Source: Bacteroidales bacterium (GTDB taxonomy: Bacteria; Bacteroidota; Bacteroidia; Bacteroidales; UBA932). Taken from it: a stretch of DNA of 64,000 bases. The position numbers and the translations under genes are program-made. How positions within the stretch are numbered: the stretch's first letter is position 1; the number at the start of each line of letters is the position of its first letter. The stretch spans positions 1-64,000 of the forward strand of contig JAFWRQ010000007.1 in the NCBI GenBank assembly GCA_017519865.1, written 5' to 3'. Shown piece by piece: positions 1,294 to 46,238 of the stretch. Below the pieces are notes generated by a model. The model saw nothing but the letters and a program-made list of their open reading frames with translations, did not search any database and had not been told where the DNA came from.

Positions 1294-2139
1294 ATGGACG
1301 AAGGGATAAAGGATATTTGGCATGTGTACTCTGACGGAACGAGGGCGGACATACCTTTCTTTTCCGATGAGGACAAGACGTTTGCCTGGAACAGTGTGGC
1401 AATCTGCGCCGAAAGGGCAGGAGTGAGGGTCCTGGTATCCACCGTCAACGACACTCATCTGCACGTTTTGGTACGAGGTGAAAAGGACAGGGTCCTGAGA
1501 TTCAAGGCGGCATTGCAGCAACGGTTGACAAGACGATACAACAGGATACATTTTGCATCCAATGAGGTTCAGACCAGGAAGGAGGCGATGTCCAAGTTCA
1601 TGTATGTCTACCGGAACTGCCTGGATTTCTACAAAAAGATGCCAGGAGAATACCGCTGGGGGTCAGGCAATATCTACTTTTCCGAGTTGAGCCGACGCCC
1701 TCCGGCCAACCGCCTGGGAATAATGTCGCTGAGGGAGCAATACCGTTGTTTCAAAACCAGGACAAAACTGCCTGAAGACTGGCTCGTGGATGCGGGGGGA
1801 CGCATACTCCCAGAGTGTTTTATCGACTATAACCACGTCGAACATCTGTTCGGGTCGGTCAGGACCTTCATAGCTTTTCTGTATGTCCGGCGCGAGGATG
1901 AAACGGCCATAAAGAAGGAGATACATAGCAACTATCTGGAATCCAGAAGCATCCAGGACCTCAGACGGATAGGCAACGAGTATTGTGTCGGCGTATGCGG
2001 CAAGACTCTCGTCAAAGTGGATGTCCGGATCCGCCTGGCCATAGCGGCCAGGATGATACGGGACGGCATCGCCGGCAAATCAGCCAGCCTCGCCAAGGCC
2101 CTGCTGCTCAAGCCTGACGACCTCAACATGCTCGTCTGA
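1294..2139 (+). CDS. REP-associated-type tyrosine (Y1/HUH) transposase-like protein, copy 1
   Basis: About 281 residues from the ATG at 1294, preceded by an A-rich stretch; a TTG 63 nt upstream is possible but less likely. The HUH metal-binding motif is THLHVLV, and the nucleophile region is YVYRN followed by YRWGSGNIYF, corresponding to the Y..N...YPWSS region of the Y1 transposase family. The C-terminal third ends in a predicted helix-turn-helix (LAIAARMIRDG...). Copies at 21172 and 45240 share WH near the N-terminus, the HUH motif, YxxRN and the same C-terminal region. There are no insertion-sequence ends, so it looks like a single-copy resident RAYT-type gene rather than an active IS. Confidence 0.8.
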   Translation: MDEGIKDIWHVYSDGTRADIPFFSDEDKTFAWNSVAICAERAGVRVLVSTVNDTHLHVLVRGEKDRVLRFKAALQQRLTRRYNRIHFASNEVQTRKEAMSKFMYVYRNCLDFYKKMPGEYRWGSGNIYFSELSRRPPANRLGIMSLREQYRCFKTRTKLPEDWLVDAGGRILPECFIDYNHVEHLFGSVRTFIAFLYVRREDETAIKKEIHSNYLESRSIQDLRRIGNEYCVGVCGKTLVKVDVRIRLAIAARMIRDGIAGKSASLAKALLLKPDDLNMLV

Positions 2140-2143
2140 CCTG

Positions 2144-2914
2144 TCAGCGCTCGAAATGCTGGTAATCCTTGGAACGGGTCCAGGAGCCTCCCCAGTGGAA
2201 GCCGTGCTCGAGGAAAAGGCGGTGGCAGAGGTCGCCGCGCTCTATCTTATACGGAAATGAAGCCGAACGGTCGACGTAGGGGGCTGCGGAAGCGGGCTCG
2301 ATAATGCGCGCACCCGCGGGCGTGACGCGGTAATAGGGGTTGTAGAGAGGGTTGATGTCAACGGCCTCGCCGTAGGCATGCTTGGAAACTGCATTCATGG
2401 AGGCCTTGTGGCGATAGTTGAAACAGGAACTGTTGTTGGCGGTCATGGAAGCCTCGTCGTCGGCGTCATAGTCGTCGATCAGGCGCATCTTCTCGATGGG
2501 ATAGCCTGCGTCGTAGAGAGCCCTGAATATCTCCAGAAGGTCTCCAGAAATGGATTTGTTGGCAATCATCTCCCCGACGAGCGTCCTGCCGGACAGGTCC
2601 TTGTGGAGAACGCGAAGGTAGCGCAGGTCCTCCACGACGACGGGGCAGCCGTCCTTGTAGGACCGGCCGTACATACGGGTGAAGACCGTACTGTCGACGG
2701 GGACGGCGGAGAAGAACGCGGAAGTGTCCATCCCGTCAAGAGCACCCGCAGGGATGATATCGCCGGGAACGAAAGAATCAGGACGGACTTCCGTCGGATG
2801 GATATCGGAAACGGAGGCAGAGACAGTTGAAACGTCTCCGCCGTTTCGACGGCAAGCGACCAGCGAAAGCATCGCTGCCATCATAATGGCCGATAACCTG
2901 AACGCCCTGCCCAT
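2144..2914 (-). CDS. M15-type D-alanyl-D-alanine carboxypeptidase-like lipoprotein
   Basis: A 256-residue protein with a lipoprotein signal ending SLVAC (Cys21), so probably membrane-anchored on the periplasmic side. The C-terminal half carries the M15/VanY zinc-peptidase signature SKHAYGEAVDINP and the later metal/catalytic segment DYQHFE, with GFHWGGSW between. Family members trim peptidoglycan stem peptides or cross-bridges; the exact substrate cannot be read. The start overlaps the stop of the DUF2130 gene by one base (TGATG), suggesting translational coupling. Confidence 0.85.
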   Translation of the reverse strand: MGRAFRLSAIMMAAMLSLVACRRNGGDVSTVSASVSDIHPTEVRPDSFVPGDIIPAGALDGMDTSAFFSAVPVDSTVFTRMYGRSYKDGCPVVVEDLRYLRVLHKDLSGRTLVGEMIANKSISGDLLEIFRALYDAGYPIEKMRLIDDYDADDEASMTANNSSCFNYRHKASMNAVSKHAYGEAVDINPLYNPYYRVTPAGARIIEPASAAPYVDRSASFPYKIERGDLCHRLFLEHGFHWGGSWTRSKDYQHFER

Positions 2915-4122
2915 CAGTCGATCATTCCTGACAGATCTTCGAATTTTGCCATCATAGTGGGATTGCCCTTGGTCAATTTCTTGATGGTCAGCGCATCGGC
3001 CTTGTCATTGGCCAGCCGGAGGTTGTTCTCTGAACCGATCAGCGCCTCCTTTATCTTCTGGAGATGCGCGATGGACTTGTCTATCTCATCGATGGCGGTC
3101 TTGAACTTGTCGCTGGCCAGACGGTAGTTGCGCCCGAAAGCTTCCTTGAATGCCATGAGATTCTCTTCGAAATGCGTCACGTCCAGGGACTGGCTCTTAG
3201 CCTCAGCCAACTGCTTCTGGTAGTCGACAGTCTTGCGCGCTGCCCCCACCAGAAGGGTGATCATCGACTTGAAGAACTGCGGACGTATCACGTACATCTT
3301 GGGATAGCGGTAAGACACATCCACGATGCCGCCATTGTACAGTTCGCTCTCCGGCTCCAGCAAAGACACCAGAACGGCGTACTCGCAGCCCTTGGCATTG
3401 CGGTCGGCGTCCAGTTTCTTGAAGAAATCCTCGTTCTTGTGCTTGGTCGCGGTTTCGTCCATCTCGTTCTTCATCTCGAACATAATGGAAATATACTCGA
3501 AACCGTCCACGAAATCGCGGAAAATAAAGTCGCCCTTGGAGCCCCCCGAAGCGTCATTGTCCTTCTCGAAATAGGCATTGGGGAACATCGGTCTCATCTC
3601 CCCGTTGAAGATCGTGCTGCAATGGACTTCCAGCGTCTCGCCGACCATCTTGGTCGAAAGACGGGTCTTGAGATCCTTATAATAGGCGACTTGCTCTTCG
3701 GCAGCCTTGAGTTTGCCCTCGTAGGACTCCTTGATGCTGTTCTCACGGACGCTCGCCTCGGAGCGTGCAAGTTTCGCATCAGCCTTAAGCTGCACGATCT
3801 CCGCTTCCTTGGCGCGCAATGTCTCCACCGCCCGCTGCTGCTCCTGCAGCACGGCGATGCGCAGAGCATCTGCGCTCTGCCCTGCAGCAGCCTTGAGCGC
3901 GGCAATTTCATTGTCGCGCTTGAATATTTCGCCCTGCCAGGCCTTCTCAGCCCTGGCAGCACGCGCCTGCTCCTCCGCCTGCTGCTGGCGACGCAGCTCT
4001 GCGAGCCGCTTCGCCACCTCGGCGTCGAACTCGGCGCCCTTCACTTGACTCACTATCGAGGCATAATCAGCCTCGTCCACGGAAAAAACGCTTCCGCATT
4101 TGGGACATTTCAATTCTCTCAT
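2914..4122 (-). CDS. DUF2130 family protein with zinc-ribbon-like N-terminus and coiled coil
   Basis: About 402 residues, starting at the ATG at 4122 ([20 protein letters not shown]). The N-terminus has a single CPKCG knuckle. Residues about 40-170 form a charged Ala/Glu/Gln-rich coiled coil. The C-terminal domain has GDFIFRD and then FEMKNEMDE, which resembles the D...ExK arrangement of PD-(D/E)XK nucleases. DUF2130 proteins are widespread and uncharacterised as far as I know. The gene is divergent from purA and translationally coupled to the downstream M15 lipoprotein. The nuclease idea is inference from the motif only. Confidence 0.8.
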
Positions 4123-4167
4123 ACTCCTATATACGATATCAAGGGGAGAACCTTTCAAGATTACACA

Positions 4168-4207
4168 CAAAGTTATAACTTTTTTCCGTCCATTTTTCGT
4201 ATCTTTA
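4168..4207. promoter_or_regulatory. Divergent promoters for DUF2130 gene and purA
   Basis: Two Bacteroidetes -7 elements face away from each other: TAACTTTG on the minus strand (4175-4168), 46 nt from the DUF2130 ATG, and TATCTTTA on the plus strand (4200-4207), 31 nt from the purA ATG. Both fit TAnnTTTG with at most one mismatch. Confidence 0.55.
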
Positions 4208-4238
4208 CTCGGTTGTTCCACAAACAAGTAGTGTATTT

Positions 4239-5510
4239 ATGAAATCCAACAAGATCGACGTGGTGCTCGGGCTCCAGTGGGGCGACGAGGGCAAAGGCAA
4301 GGTCGTAGACGTATTAACTCCTGATTACAAGATTATTGCACGATTCCAGGGAGGCCCCAATGCCGGGCATTCACTGGTCTTCGACGGTGACGGCTTCGTA
4401 CTGCACACCGTACCTTCCGGCATCTTCCGCGAAGGCACGGTCAACGTCATCGGCAACGGCGTCGTGATCGACCCCGTCATCCTTATGGACGAGATCCACG
4501 CCATCGAGCAGAAAGCCGGAGACATCACCGGAAAACTCGTTATCTCCAAACGTGCCCACCTCATCCTCCCTACGCACCGCATGCTTGACGCTGCAAGCGA
4601 GGCCGCCAAGGGCAAGTCCAAGATCGGCTCCACCCTCAAGGGCATCGGACCGACCTATATGGACAAGACCGGGCGCAACGGCCTGCGCATAGGCGACATC
4701 CTCTCCGCGGATTTCATCAATAAATACGAAGCCCTGAAGCAGAAGCATTTCGGTCTGCTTTCCCAATATGACTTCCAGTTCGACATCACCGATTACGAGA
4801 AGCAATGGATGCTGGCTGTCGAGGAGATGAAGCGATTCGAATTCATAGAGAGCGAGGTGTACGTCAATAAAGCCCTCGACGAGGGTACGCCCATCCTCGC
4901 CGAAGGCGCACAGGGCTCCCTCCTCGACATCGATTTCGGCACATATCCTTTCGTGACCTCATCCAACACTATGAGTGCCGGTGTATGCACCGGGCTTGGA
5001 GTGGCGCCGACGCGCGTAGGAAAGGTGTACGGCATCTTCAAGGCCTACTGCACGCGCGTCGGCAGCGGTCCTTTCCCGACCGAGCTCTTCGATGAGGACG
5101 GCGAGAAGCTGCGCCGCATCGGACACGAGTACGGCGCCACCACGGGCCGCCCGCGCCGCTGCGGCTGGCTCGACCTCGTGGCGCTCAAATATGCCGTCAT
5201 GATGAGCGGAGTCTCCGACCTTATCATGATGAAGTCCGACGTGCTCGACGGCTTCGACACCATCAAGGTCGCCGTCGCCTATAAGGAAGGGGACAAGATC
5301 CTTGACAGCTTCCCCTACGACGGAGGCGTCAACATCGAGCCCGTCTACAAGGAGTTCCCCGGCTGGAAAGCCCCTCTGAGCGGCCTTCGCCGCTTCGAGG
5401 ACTTCCCCCAGGCCTTCAAGGGCTACATCGCCTTCATCGAGGCCGAGACCGGATGCCGCATCAGCATCGTCTCCGTCGGCCCCGACCGCAACGCCACCGT
5501 CGTCCGCTAG
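4239..5510 (+). CDS. purA: Adenylosuccinate synthetase
   Basis: A 423-residue enzyme that joins IMP and aspartate using GTP, the first step from IMP to AMP, in the cytosol. The N-terminal GTP/IMP loop is QWGDEGKGK, then NAGHS and the switch-like segment GSTLKGIGPTYMDKTGRNG; the C-terminal guanine/Asp-binding part includes TTGRPRRCGWLD. Length is normal for bacteria. It stands alone behind its own promoter; the next step's enzyme, purB, lies 2.3 kb downstream on the opposite strand. A strong terminator follows at 5551. Confidence 0.98.
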   Translation: MKSNKIDVVLGLQWGDEGKGKVVDVLTPDYKIIARFQGGPNAGHSLVFDGDGFVLHTVPSGIFREGTVNVIGNGVVIDPVILMDEIHAIEQKAGDITGKLVISKRAHLILPTHRMLDAASEAAKGKSKIGSTLKGIGPTYMDKTGRNGLRIGDILSADFINKYEALKQKHFGLLSQYDFQFDITDYEKQWMLAVEEMKRFEFIESEVYVNKALDEGTPILAEGAQGSLLDIDFGTYPFVTSSNTMSAGVCTGLGVAPTRVGKVYGIFKAYCTRVGSGPFPTELFDEDGEKLRRIGHEYGATTGRPRRCGWLDLVALKYAVMMSGVSDLIMMKSDVLDGFDTIKVAVAYKEGDKILDSFPYDGGVNIEPVYKEFPGWKAPLSGLRRFEDFPQAFKGYIAFIEAETGCRISIVSVGPDRNATVVR

Positions 5511-5550
5511 CCTCCTCACTCTACCCGGAATTACTCCGGCATTCAATACA

Positions 5551-5587
5551 GGAAAAAGCACAGATCACATTGATTTGTGCTTTTTCC
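5551..5587 (+). terminator. Strong hairpin after purA
   Basis: Perfect 12-bp arms GGAAAAAGCACA (5551-5562) and TGTGCTTTTTCC (5576-5587). The T-run is inside the stem, so it can terminate transcription from either side. It is also the first of three related hairpins here. Confidence 0.7.
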
Positions 5588-5680
5588 GGCTCCAAGGGAA
5601 CAGAATAAGCACAAAACCTCACCTCTTGTGCTTGTTCCTCCTCATTTCAAGCACAAAACCGTCGTTCCTGTGCCTGAGCC
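5551..5680. repeat. Array of three related AAGCACA hairpins
   Basis: AAGCACA half-sites start at 5556, 5607 and 5649 (51- and 42-nt steps), each followed by a complementary TGTGCTT or TGTGCCT half-site. AAGCACAAAACC is repeated exactly at 5607 and 5649. The middle unit begins GGGAACAGAATAAGC (5596-5610), which matches the signature of the palindromic repeats flanking the transposase-like gene at 21172. No gene is visible in the 283-nt gap; the last 70 nt hold the BlaI operator and promoter. Confidence 0.6.
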
Positions 5681-5726
5681 GTTGCCCTCTCCACAATTCA
5701 GGAGCAACGAAAATAAGTAAAGAAAT

Positions 5727-5768
5727 CTACGAAAAAGTTTCGTAGTTTAAAATCTTTGTCTATATTTG
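5727..5768 (+). promoter_or_regulatory. BlaI operator and promoter of the second BlaI/M56 pair
   Basis: A perfect palindrome CTACGAAAAAGTTTCGTAG (5727-5745, 8-bp arms around AAG) lies 15 nt upstream of the -7 box TATATTTG (5761-5768). The ATG follows 25 nt later at 5794. The palindrome covers the -33 region, where a repressor would block polymerase. A degenerate copy at the left BlaI locus supports it as the operator of this repressor family. Confidence 0.75.
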
Positions 5769-5793
5769 TCGTGAGGACCAATCATAAGGCACT

Positions 5794-6159
5794 ATGAAAC
5801 AGAAACTCACGACAAAGGAAGAGGAGATAATGAACATCTTCTGGCAGAAGGGAGAATTGTGCATCAGGGAACTGGTGGACAGTTTCCCGGAGCCGAAGCC
5901 CGGTTATACCACCGTCTCCAAACAGGTGGGATTCCTCGAGGAGAAAGGATTCCTGCAGCGCAGGCCAATCGCCAACACCTTCCTGTACAAACCAGCCATC
6001 AGCGAACGCGATTACCACGGCATCACCATAGGAGACGTCGTGAACAAGTATTACGGCAAGTCCTACTCCAGCCTCGTCCTGCATTTCGTCGAGGACAAGA
6101 AGATGGACCTTGACGAACTCAAGGAAATAATAGACCTCATCGAGCATAAAGACAAATAA
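5794..6159 (+). CDS. BlaI/MecI-type winged-helix transcriptional repressor
   Basis: A 121-residue repressor: winged helix at residues 1-75 (MKQKLTTKEEEIMNIFWQKG, then YTTVSKQVGFLEEKGFLQRR) and a C-terminal dimerisation segment rich in acidic residues. It lies 4 nt upstream of its M56 partner, so the two are co-transcribed. The perfect palindrome at 5727 is its likely autoregulatory site. It is closely similar to the repressor at 289-666, so cross-regulation between the two loci is possible. In this order such pairs are not always linked to beta-lactamase, and none is present here. Confidence 0.95.
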   Translation: MKQKLTTKEEEIMNIFWQKGELCIRELVDSFPEPKPGYTTVSKQVGFLEEKGFLQRRPIANTFLYKPAISERDYHGITIGDVVNKYYGKSYSSLVLHFVEDKKMDLDELKEIIDLIEHKDK

Positions 6160-6163
6160 TGCC

Positions 6164-7786
6164 ATGCTGAACCTTGTCATATACGAAGCCAAAGTGGCCC
6201 TACTGCTGGCTATATTCTATATCTGCTACAGGGTTCTACTGAGCCGTGAGACCCTGCACAGGCTCAACCGTATCGTGCTCACAGGCAGTGTCTTGGTGTC
6301 CTTCATCCTGCCGTTCTGCGTGCTGACGGTCCACCGAACGGTGGAAGTGGCCGCCGGGGCGGACGCGCCCGCCTGGCCGGCCCTGCCGGCTTTGCCGCAG
6401 GGGCCGGCGGAGGCCGTGGCGGCCGCTGCCGCGGCGGAAGCCCCGAACGCTGCCGTACACGGCAGCTGGTGGCCGGCAGCCCTTGCCATGATATATATCG
6501 CAGGCGTCTTATTCTGCCTTGTAAGGATAGCGGTCGAACTGGTCCAGGTCAGCCGCATCATCCGTTCCGGGGAGTCTAACCCGCAGGATGACGGCACCGC
6601 CCTGGTCATCGTCGACCGTGACATTGCACCGTTCAGCTGGATGAAATGGATCGTTCTTTCGAGGGAAGACTATGAAAGCGGCAACACACACATACTTAAG
6701 CACGAGCGCGCGCACATCCGCCTCGGGCACGCGCGCGACCTGCTGTTCATCGACATCCTCTCCGCGATGCAGTGGTTCAACCCCGTGATGCAGATGCTCA
6801 AGGACGACCTCCGTGCCGTCTACGAGTACGAAGCGGACGATGCAGTCCTCCGCGAAGGAGCAAACATCAAGGAATACCAATACTCACTAATAAGAAAAGC
6901 TGTCAGTGCGAGCGGCTACTCCATCACCAACAGCTTTAATCACAGTATCCTTAAAAATCGTATTACTATGATGTCAAAACAAAAAAGCGTGACATTGCGG
7001 GGGCTGAGAGCCCTCTATGTCGTCCCGCTCGTCGCAGCGGGCCTGGCCTGCAACTCGCAGACCGTCACTGACTACAAAGTTAGTGAAGATTCTTCTGAAA
7101 CAAAAGCTGCCGGGCAGGAATTTCCCGGGCCGAGGGCTATTAATCTCCAGGTCGTCATGGAAGGAGAGGATGTAAGGTTTTATCTCAACGGCAATCCGGT
7201 AAGTTTGGATGAAGTCGGCAAAAAGGTGAATGACGTGCGCGGAGAAGACAATTACTTCTATGTCAACATTATCGGCGATCCTGAAGTGCAGATAGGATAT
7301 CTCCAAGATTTGAAAGAGGAACTTCGCAAGATCGATGCTCTGAAGATCATGTATTCGTGCAAAAAACCGGAAGTGAAAGTCGAAAGGAAACTCGAGCCGA
7401 TCGGGGCTGCGAAAAGCGTCCTTGAGTTTATGGAAAGATCAAGTGAAGGAGACGTCCAGATCCGTCTCAACAGCCTTGACAAGCTGTTGTATTTAAGGAC
7501 CGGAGGGAAAAAGGACATTAATGTCATCAATCAGGAAGACCTGTTTGACCTGGCGAAGAATGATATCGAGAAGAATAACGGCATCTCTTTCTTCTTCATA
7601 GCCGACCGCGGCTCCTCTTATGGAGCATATTCCGTCGCAGTCCAATCTGTCTATGACGCATTCAGGTCCGTCCGTGAAGATCTCGCCATGCAGGAATACG
7701 GTAAGACATTCGACGAGTTGGAAGAAGAACAGCAGGATGAACTGCGTGAAAAGTGCAGTGTAAGGATCTACGAAAGCAGTAAATAA
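6164..7786 (+). CDS. M56 family (BlaR1-like) membrane zinc protease with ExbD-like C-terminus
   Basis: A 540-residue integral membrane protein. Four transmembrane segments frame the M56 protease; the zinc motif HERAH is at residues 180-184 and a downstream EYEADDAV supplies the third ligand region. After the last membrane segment (around residue 285) comes a periplasmic domain. It does not have penicillin-binding motifs (no SxxK/KTG arrangement), and VNIIGDPEVQIGYLQDLKEE resembles ExbD-type domains. The sensed signal is therefore unlikely to be a beta-lactam acylating this protein. It is probably co-transcribed with the repressor 4 nt upstream. Confidence 0.88.
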   Translation: MLNLVIYEAKVALLLAIFYICYRVLLSRETLHRLNRIVLTGSVLVSFILPFCVLTVHRTVEVAAGADAPAWPALPALPQGPAEAVAAAAAAEAPNAAVHGSWWPAALAMIYIAGVLFCLVRIAVELVQVSRIIRSGESNPQDDGTALVIVDRDIAPFSWMKWIVLSREDYESGNTHILKHERAHIRLGHARDLLFIDILSAMQWFNPVMQMLKDDLRAVYEYEADDAVLREGANIKEYQYSLIRKAVSASGYSITNSFNHSILKNRITMMSKQKSVTLRGLRALYVVPLVAAGLACNSQTVTDYKVSEDSSETKAAGQEFPGPRAINLQVVMEGEDVRFYLNGNPVSLDEVGKKVNDVRGEDNYFYVNIIGDPEVQIGYLQDLKEELRKIDALKIMYSCKKPEVKVERKLEPIGAAKSVLEFMERSSEGDVQIRLNSLDKLLYLRTGGKKDINVINQEDLFDLAKNDIEKNNGISFFFIADRGSSYGAYSVAVQSVYDAFRSVREDLAMQEYGKTFDELEEEQQDELREKCSVRIYESSK

Positions 7787-7800
7787 AAGCTTTCATATGG

Positions 7801-7828
7801 AAAAAGGGCGGAATCATCCGCCCTTTTT
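7801..7828. terminator. Bidirectional terminator between M56 gene and purB
   Basis: AAAAAGGGCGG, a six-base loop, then CCGCCCTTTTT. It has A-run and T-run on opposite sides, placed between the convergent ends of the M56 gene (7786) and purB (7848). Confidence 0.85.
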
Positions 7829-7847
7829 TCCGTTAAGTGAACGGAAA

Positions 7848-9140
7848 TCAGATCCCAACGCGGCCGAAGATGAAGTCGACGTTCTTGAAGTAGTAGTCGA
7901 GGGTGAAACAGGATTCCAGCTCATCGACTGTAAGGAGGCCCATTACGTCAGGGGAATCCTTCAACAGAGTCTGATAGTCAAGACCTTCGGTCCAGGCTTT
8001 CATCGCGATGGGCTGGACGGTGTCGTATGCCTGTTCGCGGGCAAGGCCCTTGCCGATGAGGGCGTTCATCACGCGCTGGGCGAAAATGACGCCCTTGGTG
8101 CGGTAGATGTTCGCAAGCATCGTCTCGGGATAGACCACGAGATTCTCGAGGATGCCCTTGAAGCGGGTCAGCATGTAGTCCAGCAGTTCGGTGGCGTCCG
8201 GGAGGATGATGCGCTCGGTTGACGAGTGGGAAATGTCGCGCTCGTGCCAGAGCGCCACGTTCTCGTAGGACGCAGCCATATAGCCGCGCATCACGCGGGC
8301 GCAGCCGCAGATATTCTCGCTGCTGATGGGGTTGCGCTTGTGGGGCATGGCGCTGGAGCCCTTCTGACCCTTGCGGAAAGCCTCTTCCACTTCGCGGACC
8401 TCGGTCCTCTGGAGGTTGCGGACCTCGAAGGCCATCTGCTCCAGGGTGGAGGCGATCAGCGCCAGCGTACCGATGTAGTACGCGTGACGGTCGCGCTGCA
8501 GCACCTGGGTGGAGATGTTGGCGGAATTGATGCCGAGCTTCTCGCAGACATAGTCCTGGATGAACGGAGGGATGTTGGCGAAATTGCCGACGGCACCGCT
8601 CATCTTGCCGGCCTCGACGCCGGCGGCGGCGGTCTTGAAGCGCTCGATGTTGCGCTTCATCTCCTCGAACCACAGGGCCCACTTGAGGCCGAAACTGGTG
8701 ATGTCGGCGTGGATGCCGTGGGTACGACCGATACAAGGTGTCGACTTGAACTCCAAAGCCCTGCGTCGCAGGACTTCGAGGAACTCCTCAAGGTCTTTCA
8801 ACAGTATCGCATCTGCCTGCTTGATAAGATAACCGTTGGCAGTGTCCACGACGTCGGTGGAAGTCAGGCCGTAATGGACCCATTTGCGCTCCTCGCCAAG
8901 GCTCTCGCTGACGGCGCGGGTGAACGCTACGACATCGTGGCGGGTCTGCTCCTCGATCTCCTTGATGCGGTCGACCTTGAAGGTGGCGTTGGCGCGGATC
9001 TTCTCGACGTCTTCCGCAGGGATGACGCCGAGTTTGCTCCATGCCTCGCAGGAGAGTGTCTCGACTTCGAGATAGGCGCTGAACTTGTTCTCCTCGGTCC
9101 AGACGTCCCTCATTATCTTTCTGGAATATCTCTCGATCAT
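7848..9140 (-). CDS. purB: Adenylosuccinate lyase
   Basis: A 430-residue member of the fumarase/aspartase superfamily. It catalyses two fumarate eliminations in purine synthesis: SAICAR to AICAR and adenylosuccinate to AMP. Start is the ATG at 9140 ([14 protein letters not shown]). Visible motifs are [24 protein letters not shown] with the catalytic His region, and the superfamily signature [15 protein letters not shown]. The gene starts 2 nt after the purC stop, so purC-purB form a two-gene operon covering consecutive steps. Confidence 0.98.
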
Positions 9141-9142
9141 CT

Positions 9143-10090: not shown

Positions 10091-10112
10091 CTTCTATTAC
10101 TGTTTTATTCTA

Positions 10113-10120
10113 CAAATATA
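10113..10120 (-). promoter_or_regulatory. Promoter -7 element of purC-purB
   Basis: TATATTTG on the minus strand, 23 nt upstream of the purC ATG at 10090. I see no PurR-like or riboswitch structure in the short leader. Confidence 0.6.
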
Positions 10121-10188
10121 CTTCATTTGGCTGACGAACACAAAAAAAGCAGGGGGAAACCCTTGTAGATAAAACAGCGGGGCGGTCA

Positions 10189-11454: not shown

Positions 11455-11507
11455 GAAAGAACGCTCCATTATGAATTCGGTTTATTAGTGCGACAATCTT
11501 CCAAAGT

Positions 11508-14960: not shown

Positions 14961-14964
14961 ACAG

Positions 14965-20918: not shown

Positions 20919-21050
20919 CGGGCGCAGAACCGGCTTCCCCACTCCCGTTTTAGAAAAAAACTCTCTTTCGGGAGCAGAATATGCCTTTCCACTCCCGTTT
21001 TAGGGAAAAACCCTCTCACGGGCGCGTGGCAAGCTATTTCACTCCCGTTT
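20919..21050. repeat. Fifty-bp periodic palindromic repeat array, left of the transposase-like gene
   Basis: ACTCCCGTTT recurs at 20941, 20991 and 21041, exactly 50 bp apart. The complementary signature CGGGMGC recurs at 20919, 20969 and 21019, also 50 bp apart (for example CGGGAGCAGAATATGC at 20969-20984). Each unit can form a CTCCCG/CGGGAG stem around an A-rich loop. Units differ at many positions, so this is a degenerate array. It occupies most of the 295-nt gap between tsaB and the transposase-like gene. A TATCTTTT box at 21114-21121 may be that gene's promoter. Confidence 0.8.
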
Positions 21051-21171: not shown

Positions 21172-22104
21172 ATGAAAAGATCATTCAGTGATGAAGAACG
21201 TAGGTGCGAATCATTATTCCACCTGCTTAACCCCTGCTGGCATTTTTACACACCTGAGGATTTCCCTGTCATCCTCACCTGCGAAGCGGATTTCAAGGCA
21301 GCAATGACACTGCTTGCAGTCTGTGCACTAAGCTTCCCAAACCTCCGTATCCTTACATTCCAGTGGATGAGCAATCACCTCCATATAACACTGTCAGGCA
21401 CGGAGAAAGACATTTCATCCATGTTTGCGATGCTTAGGAAGTATCTAGGTAAACACTTGAAAGCCAGAGGCAGGATAATTCCCATAGCATCGTGGGCTTA
21501 CAACCTCCGGCGTATAAAGAGTCTAAAGGACCTGCGCAACGTTATCGCTTACAACAATCGTAACGGTTTCTTGGTGAATCCCGATTCAACTCCCCTTACC
21601 TACCCTTGGGGTGCGAACAGATTCTTCTTCAACCCAGATACGATTAAACTGGTCGAGAACAGCAAAGAGACATTGCAGCATAAGGTTATCCGGGGCCTCT
21701 ACCATACACATAAACTTGACGGTTTTACAGGGCAAACGATCCTGGACGGGTACATCCCACCTGCAGTATTCTGCGACATCGGATCCGCCGAAAATGTTTT
21801 CAGGGATGCCAGGCACTATTTCACCTCCGTTTCAAGGAATCTGGAGGGAATGAAAGATATAGCCAAAGAAATCGGTGAGAGCATTTATTATACTGACGAA
21901 GACCTATATGGCGTCATTCTCAAAATCTGCAGAGAAGGATTCGGGGTCAGCAGCCCTGCCCTCCTCCCTGCGCAGGCAAAGGTTGAGGTCGCCAGAAAGA
22001 TGTATTTCGAATACAATGCCTCTGCCAAGCAAATATCGCGAATCCTCAAGGCGGACCTTGCCCTAGTGAAGAGCATCCTTCCGGACGCAGGGAGCAAAGG
22101 CTGA
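21172..22104 (+). CDS. REP-associated-type tyrosine (Y1/HUH) transposase-like protein, copy 2
   Basis: A 310-residue protein. HUH motif NHLHITLSG, nucleophile region YNNRNGFLVNPD followed by YPWGANRFFF, and a C-terminal region GYIPPAVFCD...ENVFRDARHYF shared with the other two copies, ending in a helix-turn-helix (YNASAKQISRILKADLALVKS). It is flanked on both sides by related about 50-bp palindromic units in opposite orientations (20919-21050 and 22131-22215), the arrangement expected of a RAYT with its REP elements. RAYT proteins cut and join single-stranded REP hairpins in vitro; a housekeeping role is debated. Confidence 0.85.
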   Translation: MKRSFSDEERRCESLFHLLNPCWHFYTPEDFPVILTCEADFKAAMTLLAVCALSFPNLRILTFQWMSNHLHITLSGTEKDISSMFAMLRKYLGKHLKARGRIIPIASWAYNLRRIKSLKDLRNVIAYNNRNGFLVNPDSTPLTYPWGANRFFFNPDTIKLVENSKETLQHKVIRGLYHTHKLDGFTGQTILDGYIPPAVFCDIGSAENVFRDARHYFTSVSRNLEGMKDIAKEIGESIYYTDEDLYGVILKICREGFGVSSPALLPAQAKVEVARKMYFEYNASAKQISRILKADLALVKSILPDAGSKG

Positions 22105-22130: not shown

Positions 22131-22215
22131 AACGGGAGCGAGGAGAGCGATTCTGCGCCCGAATGAAGGAAAAAAGGGGAAACGGGAGCGAAAAGGAAGA
22201 TTCCGCTCCCGATTA
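22131..22215. repeat. Palindromic repeat pair, right of the transposase-like gene
   Basis: AACGGGAGCG occurs at 22131 and 22181, again 50 bp apart, each closed by GATTCTGCGCCCG (22149-22161) and GATTCCGCTCCCG (22199-22211). Read on the minus strand these are CGGGCGCAGAATCGC and CGGGAGCGGAATCTTC, the same signature as the left array but inverted. They fill the short gap between the transposase-like gene and the DUF4249 stop at 22248. Confidence 0.8.
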
Positions 22216-36251: not shown

Positions 36252-36254
36252 ATC

Positions 36255-38195: not shown

Positions 38196-38228
38196 AACTA
38201 TATTGTGTTTCTTACTTTATAACAGGTT

Positions 38229-40235: not shown

Positions 40236-40239
40236 GGCA

Positions 40240-40440
40240 TCAGTTTTCAAAAGAAGAGTCGACCTTTTCGCGGACGGTGCGGAGGTAAGCCCTGCACCTT
40301 GCGATCAGCTCTTCGGACTGTTTGACATAGCGGTCTATATCCTCGAGGCCGGTGGAAGGGTCCTCGACCTTCACCGCTATCTCCTCGAGGGCGGCGAGCG
40401 CCTTCTGATAATCAAAGTCTTCCATAATCACGTCCGTCAT
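40240..40440 (-). CDS. xseB: Exodeoxyribonuclease VII small subunit
   Basis: About 66 residues, mostly a helical hairpin: [39 protein letters not shown] matches XseB closely. Several small subunits wrap one XseA. The ATG at 40440 overlaps the der stop by four bases (ATGA); the ATG at 40425 is the alternative family-like start. xseA is 3.3 kb away on the other strand at 43693. Confidence 0.93.
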
Positions 40441-41747
40441 TTCTGCCTGCAATAGATCTGGACCGGACAACCGGTCAGGTCGAAGTTGTCCCTGAGCTGG
40501 TTCTCAAGGAAGCGCTTGTACGGATCCTTGATGTACTGGGGGAGATTGCAGAAGAAGGCGAAGGCGGGGAACTTGGTAGGAAGCTGCGTCACGTACTTCA
40601 CCTTGATGTACTTGCCCTTCCAGGCCGGCGGAGGGGTCTCCTCGATGATGGGGAGAAGCACTTCGTTGAGCCTGGCGGTGGGTATCTTCCTGAGATAGTT
40701 CTCGGAAACCCTGGCGGCAGCGTCCAGCACGTCCATGACGCGCTGCATCTTCACTACGGAAGTGAAGACTAAAGGCACGTCGTCGAAGGGGGCGAGCCTC
40801 GCCCGAAGCCCTTCGGTGTACTCGCGCATGGTGTTCTGGTCCTTGATGAAAAGGTCCCACTTGTTCACCACCAGTACGCATCCCTTGCGGTTCTTCTGGA
40901 TGATATTGAAGATGCTCATGTCCTGAGCCTCCATGCCGGTGGTGGCGTCGATCATAAGGATGCAGACGTCGGCCCGCTCGATGGCGCGCATGGAGCGCAG
41001 CACGGAATAGAACTCCAGGTCCTCGTGGACCTTGGACTTCTTGCGGATGCCGGCGGTGTCCACGAGGATGAACTCGTGGCCGAACTTGTTGTAAAGAGTT
41101 TCGATGGAGTCGCGGGTGGTGCCGGCGACCGGGGTGACGATGTTGCGCTCCTCGCCCAGCAGGGCGTTGGTCAGGGAGGATTTGCCGACATTGGGCTTGC
41201 CGACGATGGCTATCCTCGGAATGCCCTCGTAGGGGTCGGCGGCGGGCTGTTCCTCCTTCGGGAGTACCCGCACGACTTCGTCGAGCAGGTCTCCCGTCCC
41301 GGAGCCGTTGGCCGCCGAGATGCTCCAGACCTCGCCCAGGCCGAGGGAATAGAACTGGTACACATCATACATCTTGTCGCCCGTATCGACTTTGTTGACA
41401 CAGAGTATGACGGGTTTCCTGGAACGGCGGAGCACGTCGGCTATCTCCGCGTCGTAGTCGGTGATGCCGGTGGCGGCCTCGACCAGGAAAATCACGGCGT
41501 CAGCCTCTTCGATGGCGATCTCCACCTGACGGCGGATGGCTTTCTCGAATACGTCCTCGGAATTGGAGGTATAGCCTCCGGTGTCGACCACAGAGAACTC
41601 CGAGCCGCACCACTCGCACTTGCCGTAATGCCTGTCGCGGGTGACACCGGCGGTGTCATCCACGATGGCCTTCCTCATGCCTACCAGACGGTTGAAGAGG
41701 GTCGATTTTCCTACATTCGGTCTCCCGACTATTGCTACCAGGCTCAT
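40437..41747 (-). CDS. der: Ribosome biogenesis GTPase Der (EngA)
   Basis: A 436-residue protein with two tandem GTPase domains (P-loops GRPNVGKST near the N-terminus and GKPNVGKSS in the second domain; NKVD and NKWD specificity motifs) and a C-terminal KH-like domain ([17 protein letters not shown]). It is needed for 50S assembly. Start is the ATG at 41747; frames upstream of it belong to the preceding small gene. It is coupled by 4-nt overlaps to both neighbours. Confidence 0.97.
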
Positions 41748-42004
41748 ATCTTTTCTTCTTTGTAGAGCGCGCAGCCCGCGCATGCTTCCGTGACTTCCCC
41801 TTTGCAATGCTCAGGGACCTGTTTCCTCTTGCCCGTAAGGGCGGCTTCCTCCTCGTGTACGCACCGGATGCCGAGCCGGCGCATGTCCTTGTTCTTGCTC
41901 ACCTCGTACTCGGGGAACTCCCCGTCCTTACGGAATATGATGTTGAAACACATCCCGAAGACGCAGAGTGCGACGACTGCAAGGGTGAGGAGAAAGACTT
42001 TCAT
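41744..42004 (-). CDS. Small conserved membrane protein with cysteine-rich tail
   Basis: An 86-residue protein with one N-terminal membrane helix ([22 protein letters not shown]) followed by [30 protein letters not shown] and four further cysteines in a C-terminal region [18 protein letters not shown] recognise the [13 protein letters not shown] motif as a recurring small protein in Bacteroidales, function unknown. The Cys spacing could hold a metal or a disulfide. It lies 6 nt after prs and overlaps der by four bases. Confidence 0.8.
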
Positions 42005-42010
42005 GAGGGT

Positions 42011-42988
42011 CTAGAAGATGAATTCGGGGCTGATGGGCTCGTAGTTATAAACTTTCCTGATGATGGAGGCGAAGGTGCCGGTCATGCTCAGGACCTTGAT
42101 CTTGCGGGTGTCCACCGCCGGGTCGACCGGCAGGGGGATGGTGTCGGTGATGAACACCTCGGTGAGTTTGGACGCATTGATGCGGTCGTAGGCGGGGCCT
42201 GAAAGGATGCCGTGCGTGGCGCAGGCGCGCACGCTGGCCGCACCCATGTCGATGAGCACATCGGCAGCCTTGGTGAGGGTGCCGGCGGTGTCGATCATGT
42301 CGTCGACGATGATGATGTTCTTGCCCTCGACTTCGCCGATGGCGGTGATCTTGGAGACAACGTTGGCCTTGGCGCGGGACTTATGGCAGATGATGACCGG
42401 GCAGCCGAGGTCCTTGGCGTAGGCATTGGCGCGCTTGGCACCGCCCATGTCGGGCGCCGCTATCGCGAGGTTGGGGATGCGCATGGCCTTGATGGCGGGG
42501 ATGAAGACCTTGCTGGCGTAGACGTGGTCCACCGGGAAGTCGAAGAATCCCTGGATCTGGTCGGCGTGCAGGTCGCAGGTCATGACACGGTCGGCTCCGG
42601 CCGCACGGAGGAGGTTGGCGGCCAGCTTGGCGCCGATGGATACGCGGGGCTTGTCCTTGCGGTCCTGGCGTGCCCATCCGAAATAAGGGATGACGGCTAT
42701 GACCTTGTCGGCCGAGGCGCGCTTGGCGGCATCGATGCAGAGCAGGAGCTCCATAAGGTTGTCCGCCGGTGGAAATGTTGACTGGATGAGGAACACGGTG
42801 GCTCCACGGACGCTCTCCATATAGGCTGGCTGGAACTCGCCGTCGCTGAAAGGAGTGACTTCGAGGTCGCCGAGATGATACTCAGGCTCCTCCGGCGACT
42901 TGATGGCGTTCAATCCGTCAATAACCTTGCGTGCAAAGTCGCGTGAAGCCCTGCATGCAAAGATTTCCAATTTGTGTACGTTGTTCAT
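42011..42988 (-). CDS. prs: Ribose-phosphate pyrophosphokinase (PRPP synthetase)
   Basis: A 325-residue enzyme producing PRPP from ribose 5-phosphate and ATP for nucleotide, His and Trp synthesis. Motifs are YFGWARQDRKDKPRVSIGAK (ATP flexible loop), MTCDLHADQIQGFFDFPVDH and the PRPP loop IIIVDDMIDTAGTL. It follows engB by 21 nt. Confidence 0.97.
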   Translation of the reverse strand: MNNVHKLEIFACRASRDFARKVIDGLNAIKSPEEPEYHLGDLEVTPFSDGEFQPAYMESVRGATVFLIQSTFPPADNLMELLLCIDAAKRASADKVIAVIPYFGWARQDRKDKPRVSIGAKLAANLLRAAGADRVMTCDLHADQIQGFFDFPVDHVYASKVFIPAIKAMRIPNLAIAAPDMGGAKRANAYAKDLGCPVIICHKSRAKANVVSKITAIGEVEGKNIIIVDDMIDTAGTLTKAADVLIDMGAASVRACATHGILSGPAYDRINASKLTEVFITDTIPLPVDPAVDTRKIKVLSMTGTFASIIRKVYNYEPISPEFIF

Positions 42989-43009
42989 ATATACCTGTTA
43001 TAGTGTGTG

Positions 43010-43606
43010 TTATAGTGTTGAAAGTATATTTCCGATATAGTCGAGGATCTCGTCGCGGCCCATTCCGGACTCAGAAGAGCTCCGGAACGAGGGTGGGAGG
43101 TCCTCCCAATCCTTGAGCAGGCGCTCCTCGTTGCGTGCTATCTGTGCGGCGAGGACGTTGGGGCCCTGTTTGTCGCACTTGGTGTAGATGATGCCGAAAG
43201 GGATGCCGTTTTCACCGAGCTCGGCCATGAAGTCGAGGTCGATGCTGCCGATGTCATGCCTCGAGTCAACAAGGACGAAGAGCATGACAAGCTCTTCGGA
43301 GTTGTGGATGTAGTCGCGGATGAGGGCCTTGAGCTCCTCGCGGGCCTTCTGGGGGAGCTTGGCATAGCCGTAGCCAGGGAGGTCGACAAGGTACCAGCTG
43401 TCGTTGATGAGGAAGTGGTTGACGACCTTGGTCTTGCCGGGAGTGGAGGAAGTCATGGCGAGTTTCTTCCGGCCGGTGAGCATGTTGATGAGGGAGGACT
43501 TGCCGACATTGGATCGCCCGATGAAGGCGAACTCAGGCAGTTTCTGCTTGGGCTTCTGTATGACTCTTGTGCTGCTGCCCGCAAAGCTGGCGTCAATGAT
43601 CTTCAT
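43010..43606 (-). CDS. engB: Ribosome biogenesis GTP-binding protein EngB (YihA/YsxC)
   Basis: A 198-residue single-domain GTPase. P-loop FIGRSNVGKSSLIN, switch SSTPGKTKVVNHF, Walker B VDLPGYGYAKLP and the TKCDK specificity motif define the family. It is the first gene of an apparently continuous eleven-gene minus-strand operon ending with ribF. Confidence 0.97.
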   Translation of the reverse strand: MKIIDASFAGSSTRVIQKPKQKLPEFAFIGRSNVGKSSLINMLTGRKKLAMTSSTPGKTKVVNHFLINDSWYLVDLPGYGYAKLPQKAREELKALIRDYIHNSEELVMLFVLVDSRHDIGSIDLDFMAELGENGIPFGIIYTKCDKQGPNVLAAQIARNEERLLKDWEDLPPSFRSSSESGMGRDEILDYIGNILSTL

Positions 43607-43629
43607 CGGGGTCCTCTTTAATACGCGTG

Positions 43630-43669
43630 CAAAGATAGCAATTTTCCAGCAATTATTTTCCTACCTTTG
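43630..43669. promoter_or_regulatory. Divergent promoters of the engB operon and xseA
   Basis: TATCTTTG on the minus strand (43637-43630), 24 nt from the engB ATG, and TACCTTTG on the plus strand (43662-43669), 24 nt from the xseA ATG. The plus-strand box includes a GTG that could be mistaken for the xseA start. Confidence 0.6.
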
Positions 43670-43692
43670 TGAGGAATAAAAGCCTATTCGAC

Positions 43693-44802
43693 ATGGAAAT
43701 GGAATATATCGACCTGTACACCCTGCAAAGCCGTCTGAAACTGGGTTTGGAGGACCTGTTTCCGGAGAAACTATGGGTCAGGGCGGAGATAGCCTCGGTC
43801 AGCGTGAAGGCCAACGGTCACTGCTATCTCGACCTCTCCCAGAACGACTCCGGAGGCATCTCCGCACGGGCCAAGGCGGTGATCTGGAGGTCCAGATACT
43901 ACCAGCTCAACCAGTTCTTCGTGGCTGCGACAGGCTCGTCATTGCAGGCGGGCATGTCGGTGCTCGTAAGGGTCCAGGTCACGTACAGCGAACTGTACGG
44001 GCTGACCCTCGTCATAGATGACCTTGACCCGCAGTTCACACTGGGAGAGCAGGAGCTTGAGAAGCGCCGCACGATAGCGCGCCTGGAGGCCGAAGGCCTG
44101 CTAGGGCGGCAGAAGTCGCTCGAGCCCGCGGCGCTGCCGTACGCGCTCGCCGTCGTCACGGCGCGCGACGCCGCCGGCTACGGCGACTTCCATCGCCATC
44201 TCCATGGCAACGAATACGGTTTCGTGTTCCGCACCGACCTCTTCGAGGCGACGATGCAGGGGCCGACCGCCCCGGAGTCGATAGTCGACGCCATCGACCG
44301 CATCGAAAGTTCGGACACGCGTTACGACGCCATCCTCATAATGCGCGGCGGCGGCTCGGTCCTCGACCTCGCCTGCTTCGATGACTACGGGCTCTGCTGG
44401 CGCATCGCCCAGTGCCCCGTCCCGGTCTACACGGCCATAGGCCACGACCGGGACCACCACGTCGCCGACATGGTCGCCTATTCTTACGTCAAGACTCCCA
44501 CGGCGCTTGCAGACCTGTTCCTGGACTGTTACATGGCTGAGGACGAGCGAATTAGCGCTTTCAGTACGCGCCTCCGTCTGGCGTTCCTGAACAAGGTGAA
44601 CGCCCTCGCTTCGCGAGTCGACCTGCTGGAAGCGCGCATCAAGGCGGCGGACCCGCGCGCCATACTGAAGCGCGGGTACCTGCTGGCGGCGGACGCCCGC
44701 GGACGCGTGCTCAAGTCCGCCTCAGCCGCCGCCCCCGGCGACCGCATCTCGCTGCTTTTCTCCGACGGCACCCTCGACTGCGAAGTCAAGTCCCGCCGCT
44801 GA
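43693..44802 (+). CDS. xseA: Exodeoxyribonuclease VII large subunit
   Basis: A 369-residue protein from the ATG at 43693. OB-fold domain: LWVRAEIASVSVKANGHCYLDL; catalytic region: ILIMRGGGSVLDLACFDDYGLCWRIAQCPVPVYTAIGHDRDHHVADMVAYSYVKTPTALADL, quoted here only as positions about 222-283 with its key DxxC..GHxxD residues. The C-terminal coiled coil is shorter than in the roughly 450-residue E. coli protein. The partner xseB is at 40240. Confidence 0.95.
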   Translation: MEMEYIDLYTLQSRLKLGLEDLFPEKLWVRAEIASVSVKANGHCYLDLSQNDSGGISARAKAVIWRSRYYQLNQFFVAATGSSLQAGMSVLVRVQVTYSELYGLTLVIDDLDPQFTLGEQELEKRRTIARLEAEGLLGRQKSLEPAALPYALAVVTARDAAGYGDFHRHLHGNEYGFVFRTDLFEATMQGPTAPESIVDAIDRIESSDTRYDAILIMRGGGSVLDLACFDDYGLCWRIAQCPVPVYTAIGHDRDHHVADMVAYSYVKTPTALADLFLDCYMAEDERISAFSTRLRLAFLNKVNALASRVDLLEARIKAADPRAILKRGYLLAADARGRVLKSASAAAPGDRISLLFSDGTLDCEVKSRR

Positions 44803-44873
44803 CCACCGTCCCCGGCCATTCTTCCACCGTCCGACGCTGTCATAGCCCCACACCGGTACCCTACCCGCCTCCA

Positions 44874-45018
44874 GCCAAAACCCATTGGACCGGCAAAGAC
44901 CTCACACTGGCCTGCACGGCCCGTTCCGGGCCAATGGCCAGTTCCTCGACCGGGTCATTGGCCCGGGCATTGCCACAGAGAGCGATAAGGGCCGACTGCC
45001 GGTCCGATGGGTTTTGAC
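44874..45018. repeat. Large inverted repeat with nested palindromes upstream of copy 3
   Basis: Outer arms at 44874-44895 and 44997-45018 are 22 nt long and complementary at 20 positions (core AAAACCCATTGGACCGGCA). The enclosed 100 nt contain the hairpin GGCCCG/CGGGCC (44918-44932) and a second inverted pair built on GGCCAATGGCC and GGTCATTGGCC. It fills much of the 437-nt gap between xseA and the transposase-like gene. No coding frame or known RNA family is recognised. Confidence 0.75.
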
Positions 45019-45077
45019 AATCATCTGAAATAGAGAGTTTTTCAGAGAAACACTTGCTATTCCCCCTCCTTGAAACT

Positions 45078-45131
45078 ATCTTTGTACAAGCAAGCACGAG
45101 AAGATGCCCCGACGACATCCCCAACGGGGCG
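45078..45131 (+). promoter_or_regulatory. Promoter and structured leader of transposase-like copy 3
   Basis: TATCTTTG at 45078-45085, followed by a leader of about 150 nt to the ATG at 45240. The leader has a GCCCCG/CGGGGC hairpin (45107-45112 and 45126-45131) and a GGCGT/ACGCC hairpin around 45159-45175. Structure near the ribosome-binding region could limit translation. Confidence 0.4.
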
Positions 45132-45239
45132 AAGGGCTGCGGAGAAACGCTCCGGGCCCGGCGTATCTGGGACGCCGAACCATCCGGCCAGGGAAAGTAG
45201 TCGCCACCGACCCGGCCGACATTTTTCAAACGCTTGCTT

Positions 45240-46238
45240 ATGACTGTCACAACCACGCTCCTAGAGCAACTCCGTATTGATTTATCCATAGGGCATCCGT
45301 TCATCAAGGGACATTTGCGTCCGGTCAGGAACTGTTGGCACTTCTCATCGGACGGCAACTGTGCTTTCGCCCTGTTCGAAACGGAAGCAGACTTCAAGGC
45401 CGCAATGAACAGGCTTGCCCGTCTGGCACTGAGGAGCCGTGTCCTCATCCTGGCATTCTGCCTGATGGACAACCACGTCCACTTCGTCCTGTACGGTGAG
45501 TTGCAGGACTGCGAGGCCTTTACCCGTGAATTCCTCAACCTCACTGCCCATTACAACTCCCGCAAACACGGTATCGGGAAAGCAGCCGCCATTCCGGTCA
45601 ACCATCAGCGTATCGACGATGAGGAGTATCTGCTGAACTGCATATGTTATGACCTTCGCAACCCGCCCGTAAACGGCCTAAGATATATGTTTTACGACTA
45701 CCCCTGGTCCAGCGGTCCGCTATATTTCCGCTCCGCCGGAACCTGGGCGGCACCGTTGTGGACATACATCGGCAAAGACTGTCCCACTCCTGTCGCCGCA
45801 TTCTTCAAGGTCTGCCGGGCTGGAGAATTGGGGCCAAAAGCCTTGAAAAAACTGCTCGGTTCTGAACAGTCTGTTCCAGAAGACTGGATGATCTGCGACG
45901 GTATGGTCCTTCCTTCATCCTACATCCCTGTAGGTACCGTCGAAGCCCTGTTCAAATCACACCGGGCCTTCAACTTCTTCATCGGCCGCAACAAGGAAAA
46001 GGAGATGGAGGACATAATGGGAGTGTGGACGTCGCTCAATCTGCAGGACACTGAAATGCGCAGGCACAGGGATGAGGAGATCACGGCATTATACGGCTCA
46101 ACCAGCATCCGGGACCTAAACATGCCGCAGCGGATCGAAGTGGGCAGGATTCTCAGGAAGAAGTATATGACCTCCGTAAAACAGATTGCAAGGACAGTCT
46201 GCATCCCGTTGGAGGAGGCGGAGAAAGCCATCCGATGA
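45240..46238 (+). CDS. REP-associated-type tyrosine (Y1/HUH) transposase-like protein, copy 3
   Basis: About 332 residues from the ATG at 45240. It is the clearest family member of the three: CWHFSSDGNCAFALFETEADF, HUH motif NHVHFVLYG, and nucleophile region CYDLRNPPVNGL followed by YPWSSGPLYF. The C-terminal region (GMVLPSSYIPVGTVEALF) and the final helix-turn-helix (MTSVKQIARTVCIPLEEAEKA) match copies 1 and 2. Sequence divergence between copies is high, so they are old paralogues, not recent insertions. The upstream inverted repeat is its probable partner sequence. Confidence 0.87.
   Translation: MTVTTTLLEQLRIDLSIGHPFIKGHLRPVRNCWHFSSDGNCAFALFETEADFKAAMNRLARLALRSRVLILAFCLMDNHVHFVLYGELQDCEAFTREFLNLTAHYNSRKHGIGKAAAIPVNHQRIDDEEYLLNCICYDLRNPPVNGLRYMFYDYPWSSGPLYFRSAGTWAAPLWTYIGKDCPTPVAAFFKVCRAGELGPKALKKLLGSEQSVPEDWMICDGMVLPSSYIPVGTVEALFKSHRAFNFFIGRNKEKEMEDIMGVWTSLNLQDTEMRRHRDEEITALYGSTSIRDLNMPQRIEVGRILRKKYMTSVKQIARTVCIPLEEAEKAIR

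Follow-up and report, generated by a model that had tools for sequence, protein, structure and literature searches.

Long RAYT-like proteins and their probable cognate hairpin arrays in one genus of Bacteroidales

Genes and palindromes of the window and the genome

Three divergent genes for RAYT-like proteins lie in a stretch of 64,000 nucleotides, here the window, of a Bacteroidales genome (assembly GCA_017519865.1, contig JAFWRQ010000007.1, positions 1 to 64,000 of the forward strand). RAYTs, or TnpA_REP proteins, are transposase relatives associated with repetitive extragenic palindromic (REP) elements. From protein and flanking sequences we conclude that the family of the window genes probably consists of long TnpA_REP relatives with a helix-turn-helix (HTH)-like tail and cognate hairpin arrays. 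Its members are most likely the product of a genus-specific radiation of long RAYTs whose REP arrays lack a GTAG motif.

A preliminary description of the window had ascribed to the three genes a common W-H, an HUH motif (THLH, NHLH and NHVH), a Y-x-x-R-N and a W[GS] before an aromatic patch, and the frames and motifs are indeed present. The tyrosine motif reads YDLRNP in 45234, with the P, and YNNRNG in 21172 and YVYRNC in 1294, where the P is absent. Three specificity classes had been counted within 45 kb. This number is corrected to 11 RAYT-like genes in the 2.12-Mb assembly (rated 75% complete), found with Y1_Tnp and the three window proteins as queries, and to very many across one genus. 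A candidate on C27 was dropped, being a weak match (E 0.19) in a 927-aa frame. Identity to 21172 is 58% for the C20 protein and 49% for the C19 protein, both of which have other arms.

Palindromic DNA stands upstream of each window gene, as described, but the CCTTCGGG array before locus 1 is the repeat of another gene. The CCTTCGGG palindrome occurs at 54 sites of the genome if up to 2 mismatches are allowed, and the reversed pattern at 4. These 54 sites, of which 21 are exact, lie on 8 contigs, often at intervals of 42 nt. Three copies surround the gene at C9:38308, on both sides, which makes it the probable partner of this dispersed family. Because the two hairpins near locus 1 (2 of the 54 sites) are part of the family flanking C9:38308, they do not belong to locus 1. 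Its own repeat is tentatively the degenerate hairpin at 909-928. Judged by eye, this hairpin corresponds in place to that of the 73% relative L195, which it resembles in its surround and its ATTGCAAT loop.

Among the window genes, locus 2 alone has palindromes on both sides (3 units upstream and 2 downstream) with a significant flank-to-flank score, namely 50 in a local alignment of the upstream with the downstream flank. At locus 3, a palindromic element of 141 nt is confined to the upstream side. In the whole genome, a flank-to-flank repeat is found at 7 of the 11 genes, with scores of 37-76, and is wanting by score at locus 1 (18), locus 3 (22), C23 (22) and C28 (27). On each side of the C28 RAYT there is a stretch of ~110 nt starting with CGTGGCA and ending with TGCCACG (L002:1243-1352 and 2422-2532); the two are similar in layout, with little sequence identity. 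The features are compiled in the table.

Table. RAYT-like genes and palindromes of the window (first nine rows) and of the remaining assembly
Feature	Position	Strand	Remarks
Locus 1, RAYT-like protein, clade C	1294..2139	+	Start uncertain, open frame from 1231
Locus 2, RAYT-like protein, clade A	21172..22104	+	H69, H71, Y127, N131; palindrome CGGGMGC..CACTCCCG
Locus 3, RAYT-like protein, clade B	45240..46238	+	Open frame from 45234; longer palindromic structure
Degenerate hairpin, tentatively locus 1's own repeat	909..928	n/a	By eye only
Two CCTTCGGG hairpins, 42 nt apart	992..1055	n/a	Dispersed family, not locus 1's own
Three AAGCACA..TGTGCTT-type hairpins	5556..5675		Palindrome type of C19:56232; between two genes, away from any RAYT
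Three CGGGMGC..CACTCCCG units upstream of locus 2	20919-20947, 20969-20997, 21019-21047	+	50-nt period
Two units of the locus 2 palindrome, downstream	22133-22161, 22183-22211	-	50-nt period
Four-arm element upstream of locus 3	44876..45016		Arms 44876-44895, 44926-44937, 44956-44966, 44997-45016
RAYT-like gene	C20:114413		Palindrome GGGCCC
RAYT-like gene	C19:56232		Palindrome AAGMACA..TGTKCTT
RAYT-like gene	C9:170047		Palindrome GGTGTGCA..TGCACACC
RAYT-like gene	C9:38308		Palindrome CATCCTTCGGG..CCCGAAGGATG
RAYT-like gene	C23:27828		Longer palindromic structure
RAYT-like gene	C2:27918		Palindrome CACAGAATGAA..TTCATTCTGTG
RAYT-like gene	C14:~363		Palindrome GCGACGCC..GGCGTCGC
RAYT-like gene	C28:68881		Longer palindromic structure

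Protein core, C-terminal end and distribution

None of the window proteins reaches a Pfam or NCBIfam cut-off or matches PHROGs or PADLOC at E<=0.01. A weak similarity to REP_Tyr_transpos is seen in protein 45234 alone (E 5e-4; 19.9 bits for a cut-off of 80). Y1_Tnp matches at E<=0.1 were obtained for 7 of 18 clade A members, the best with 3e-4. Homology of the core is established by profile comparison. About 140 N-terminal residues align (hhalign 97%, E 7e-11) with L225, a protein itself above the Y1_Tnp cut-off, and the alignment brings the HUH motif, the tyrosine and the W-aromatic patch into register. Both histidines of the HUH motif and the tyrosine are present in 171/171 proteins, a set that includes near-duplicates and is numbered as window protein + 1. 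As to the class 2 signature Y-x-x-x-N-P, the tyrosine is kept in 100% and the asparagine in 98% of these proteins, and the P in one of the three window proteins. Profile comparison and invariant residues together identify the HUH-Y1 core characteristic of RAYT/TnpA_REP proteins. Among PDB sequences, the profile matched only the ISDra2 transposase, in the HUH region (E 0.026); three weak PDB matches of protein 21172 alone are unrelated and were discarded.

The last ~65 residues align (hhalign 92%, E 5.6e-7) with the C-terminal ends of L226 and L229, two RAYTs from another genus in the same family, and of L225, a RAYT from a different family. Two of these three have HTH matches that fall short of the Pfam cut-off, with 20.5 bits for 21.9 required and 15.3 for 23.8. 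The added C-terminal domain of the preliminary description is supported; its terminal HTH is not called by Pfam in the window proteins and appears in the aligned RAYT ends only below cut-off. The C-terminal end is not unique to the group, a related end being present in RAYTs of another genus in the same family. Protein lengths in the long-RAYT family are 281-334 aa.

The long proteins are widespread within one genus. A clade A profile built on four proteins matched in 124 of 249 genomes at E<=1e-10 (own included; one genus of the 99 sampled), a clade B profile at E<=1e-15 in 146 of 298 (a single genus among 119), and the locus 1 protein in 84 of 161 genomes of the same genus. In an order-wide draw, the family profile matched in 49 of 393 genomes at E<=1e-6, with two-domain matches only in the three drawn genomes of this genus and N-terminal matches only in the other 46. 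Named relatives come from gut and rumen Bacteroidales assemblies, with one Candidatus Cryptobacteroides and one Candidatus Cacconaster; the genus of the window is presumably Cryptobacteroides. Protein 21172 has no match at E<=0.001 in 50,697 phage and 72,556 plasmid records, and 45234 has none in viral contigs. A search of viral contigs with the clade A alignment gave one match: the viral-classed IMG/VR contig IMGVR_UViG_3300020112_002877 (L246) carries a clade A member near its end, with 44% identity over 303 residues. The relatives' contigs often stop within a few hundred bases of the RAYT gene (among L036-L144: L089, L091, L096, L098 and L100), as if the RAYT repeats broke the assemblies.

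Hairpin arrays and their divergence with the protein

The pairing of genes with palindromes was assessed mainly in clade A. Its 113 loci (4 own, 29 stronger among the profile matches listed, 20 from a further set of relatives, and 60 taken by place) yielded 112 of full length, 109 with both flanks and 99 after removal of proteins at least 95% identical to one kept. The null consisted of 9,702 mismatched pairs of flanks, with a 99th percentile of 34. This percentile is exceeded at 64 of the 99 non-redundant loci, the median flank score being 57 for the two flanks of one gene, as against 21 for mismatched genes, and the own downstream flank is the best of all in 57/99. Both flanks have a hairpin arm in common at 60/99 loci, compared with 666/9,702 mismatched pairs. 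Recurrent one-arm hairpins reach a score of 4 at 48/99 loci versus 1/990 shuffles; GGGCCC of L007 was missed in this search because arms of only two letters are skipped. In clades B and C, whose sets were not made non-redundant, 17/30 and 12/30 loci surpass their own 99th percentile. Palindromes on both sides, a mark of RAYTs, are thus found in the family, but not at window loci 1 and 3. Repeats matched between the flanks also occur outside the long-RAYT family: of five short or sister-genus RAYTs from other Bacteroidales, four score 45-49 versus at most 30 for mismatched flanks, and the fifth does not.

The arrays have a common architecture. Of the 132 spacings between successive hairpins at the 48 best loci of clade A, 106 measure 50-52 nt. 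The hairpins, counted only with loops of 10-24 nt, span 25-35 nt between the 5th and the 95th percentile. On the inner side of the 5' arm, the next four bases are enriched in A (52% versus a background of 25%; 47 loci). Arm sequences vary from locus to locus; single-linkage grouping sorts those of 48 loci into 20 classes, an approximate number since short words in common chain unlike arms. Of ten clade B loci inspected, five have direct repeats of ~150 nt, read as four alternating arms (L166, L170, L173, L177 and L180); the remainder have repeats that are shorter or of another kind, inverted in two cases. The element at 44876-45016 of the window, on the upstream side only, shows this four-arm layout with different arms.

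Divergence of the arms is tied to divergence of the protein. Among pairs of loci with own repeats, repeats are shared across loci in 36/1,948 pairs below 50% protein identity, 0/42 at 50-60%, 5/18 at 60-70%, 2/4 at 70-80% and 4/4 at 80-95%. One of the five sharing pairs at 60-70% (L109/L125) reflects coding sequence of a neighbour, and L109/L126 probably does likewise. Palindromes are common mainly to close proteins, and diverged paralogues keep the palindrome layout, not its sequence. Within genomes, the fetched loci give 46 clade A pairs in 22 genomes, with a top identity of 68%, and a palindrome is common to 1 of the 21 pairs with repeats. Neither N-terminal nor C-terminal identity, compared by eye in 40 pairs at 55-95% identity, separates the 11 sharing pairs from the 29 non-sharing ones.

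This evidence bears on the idea that the palindromes are terminators, attenuators or chance repeats unrelated to the proteins. A clear shared repeat is wanting in 35 of the 99 clade A loci, and hairpins are common between genes. However, arms agree between the flanks of one gene far above the cross-gene level, the period is fixed and sharing depends on protein identity, while an Rfam scan of the window gives two tRNAs only and matches no palindrome as RNA. Such an origin is quite improbable.

Twenty pairs of loci have a neighbouring gene in common. In L037/L087, the neighbours are 85% and 97% identical, the RAYT 58%, the arms differ, and DNA identity drops only across the cassette. Both neighbours are matched in 10 pairs, and in 6 of these, not all of them independent, the RAYT has a lower identity than either neighbour. 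Faster evolution of the RAYT than of its neighbours is only suggested, because the four other pairs (L036/L067, L077/L082, L093/L097 and L101/L112) run in the opposite direction or are mixed.

Copies away from the gene, another mark of RAYT/TnpA_REP systems, were found for 7 of the 11 palindrome types in this genome, among the nine types looked for (all but those of C28 and locus 1). The preliminary description had hung its proposal on palindromes being present elsewhere or conserved beside orthologues; besides these dispersed copies, close relatives do share palindromes. The CGGGMGC type has five exact sites, all beside 21172. At C16:149313-149441 and C9:184194-184272 there are arrays with this type's period that stand apart from any RAYT identified, and sites with up to 2 mismatches number 35 and 28 against 8 and 9 in the control, thus being partly due to chance. 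GGGCCC units of the C20 type adjoin the C16 array (by eye). Arrays of the AAGMACA (C19) type occur in the window at 5556-5675 and on C21, and a solo copy of the four-arm element of 45240, with the same layout, at C25:57471-57611. A scan for the C2, C14, C9:170k and C23 types covered the window and 306 kb of other contigs. It found CACAGAATG (C2 type) at C16:10652 and 10724, with one substitution each, and GCGACGCC (C14 type) at C7:8599 and 8671, both exact, each pair being 72 nt apart; the C9:170k and C23 types gave no convincing site away from the gene in this sample. No type in the genome reaches the high copy number (>100).

Several arrangements of these repeats deserve mention in their own right. 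Arrays abut in composite sites, CGGGMGC with GGGCCC in L233 (C16:149.3k) and CGGGMGC with CCTTCGGG in L234 (C9:184.2k). A CCTTCGGG hairpin on C9 (L001:1195-1221) lies inside the open frame L001:427-1383, which we take to encode a ComF-type phosphoribosyltransferase, and leaves the frame unbroken. A further palindrome of the genome, AACCCTCAACC..GGTTGAGGGTT and its variants, has no recognised RAYT partner (L234:1210-1236; L237:1015-1040 and 2358-2440). Variant arrays of CCTTCGGC..GCCGAAGG, distinct from CCTTCGGG, have a period of 42 nt (C1:23704-23892, C1:25614-25760 and C30:14246-14476).

Could the genes be ordinary IS200/IS605-type insertion sequences with hairpin ends? TnpA proteins of this type, such as those of ISDra2 and IS608, combine an HUH-Y1 core with hairpin recognition. 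The long RAYTs resemble them in this core, in the matched HUH region, with ISDra2 as the nearest solved structure by sequence, and in hairpins on both sides. Insertion sequences are multi-copy and near-identical, whereas near-identical copies are absent among the within-genome clade A pairs. Moreover, the repeats form arrays with solo copies elsewhere, frames are of full length in 112 of 113 clade A loci, and 21172 is unmatched in the phage and plasmid records. An identity as insertion sequences is hardly tenable.

Alternatively, the proteins could mainly be regulators, with the C-terminal HTH binding the palindromes as double-stranded operators and the nuclease core unused there. A dimeric HTH would suit palindromes, 50-52 nt correspond to about five helical turns, arrays adjoin the gene and the C-terminal end is related to ends with weak HTH matches. 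In contrast, the two histidines and the tyrosine are invariant and therefore favour a working nuclease core, arrays also occur away from these genes, and an inner stem rich in A/T agrees with a folded hairpin. A mainly regulatory role appears unlikely.

The reading of the family as long RAYTs paired with hairpin repeats has to be weighed against several observations. Flank-shared repeats do not exceed the threshold at 35/99 clade A loci, nor at loci 1 and 3 of the window, which stay at background level; the claim of a Bacteroidales RAYT-type subfamily beside its own palindromes is borne out by many members. The null was built from mismatched flanks of family loci rather than from flanks of ordinary genes. 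Sharing of ~2% persists below 50% protein identity, some of it being neighbouring coding sequence (e.g. L079/L089). A GT[AG]G foot is present in 6/224 hairpins (2.7%), versus 6.0% of 1,920 random positions. Lastly, copies away from the gene are few for all types except CCTTCGGG. These points all weigh against the pairing.

Proposed mechanism, known systems and significance

On balance, and with a probability of about 0.72, the genes would encode long RAYT/TnpA_REP-like HUH-Y1 single-strand nucleases or strand transferases, many of them paired with their own REP-like hairpin repeat. A single-stranded repeat, for example on the lagging-strand template, would fold into a hairpin whose arms and A/T-rich inner stem would be recognised by the protein, presumably through an arm-reading domain. 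The tyrosine of the protein would nick the DNA beside the hairpin. Units may then be moved or copied, generating arrays with a 50-52-nt period beside the gene and seeding small arrays elsewhere. Paralogues within one genome would have drifted to different arms and would thus not cross-react. A more far-reaching proposal, still tentative, is that the genus holds a library of orthogonal single-stranded DNA (ssDNA) hairpin nucleases on one scaffold, with a 50-52-nt unit, a hairpin of ~25-35 nt, an A/T-rich inner stem and hypervariable arms. At a given chromosomal site, enzyme and arms would be exchanged as one, under pressure to avoid cross-talk among the paralogues of a genome, and the protein-to-hairpin recognition code might be readable from sequence alone.

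Comparison with known TnpA_Y1 subclasses relies on their published descriptions, as excerpted from the papers cited, and not on subclass profiles. The long RAYTs are like the REPtrons of subclass 2.2/group 2 and subclass 2.5/group 3 in their HUH-Y1 core, in one gene per repeat type, in hairpin repeats on both sides with copies elsewhere, and in low identity between copies in one genome (PMC6006769, PMC8266576). Hairpin-specific processing is documented for a known TnpA_REP (PMC8266576). The long RAYTs differ from these REPtrons in their length of 281-334 aa, the medians of subclasses 2.2 and 2.5 being 165 and 151, and in Y-x-x-R-N, with the P often missing, in place of Y-x-x-x-N-P (PMC6006769). 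They also differ in the lack of a GT[AG]G foot and in few dispersed copies for most types (PMC6006769, PMC8266576).

Long proteins with a C-terminal HTH, to which the putatively HTH-like end described here may correspond, are a feature of subclass 2.1/group 1 and of TIRYTs, the RAYT relatives flanked by terminal inverted repeats (TIRs) (PMC6006769, PMC3733652). For subclasses 2.1 and 2.3, both with a C-terminal extension, the excerpted text states that REPs are lacking, and TIR-flanked proteins are placed in 2.1 (PMC6006769). In contrast to subclass 2.1 as published, hairpin arrays stand on both sides in 64/99 clade A loci. TIRYTs are similar in having flanking repeats, which can form low-copy families (PMC3733652), but these are long terminal inverted repeats, unlike the periodic hairpin arrays that differ by locus here (PMC6006769, PMC3733652). 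Subclass 2.6/group 5, likewise from Bacteroidetes, has copies elsewhere and is flanked by atypical structures that lack GT[AG]G, as class 3 does too (PMC6006769). Its proteins differ, with a median of 179 aa and the Y motif YIH[QN]NP, and periodic locus-specific arrays are not among the features described for it in the excerpts (PMC6006769). In a literature search, mostly judged by title, no paper was recognised as describing this long-RAYT group.

If the reading is true, RAYT/REP systems would extend to long HTH-tailed proteins, a class reported without REPs in the excerpted text of a large survey (PMC6006769). The survey classifies proteins found with Y1_Tnp at E<0.01, a Pfam filter by which the long-RAYT group would probably have been missed (PMC6006769). 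Dozens of natural enzyme-hairpin pairs on one scaffold would make the recognition of ssDNA hairpins directly testable, and the same-site cassette switches would render the co-evolution of nuclease and target traceable.

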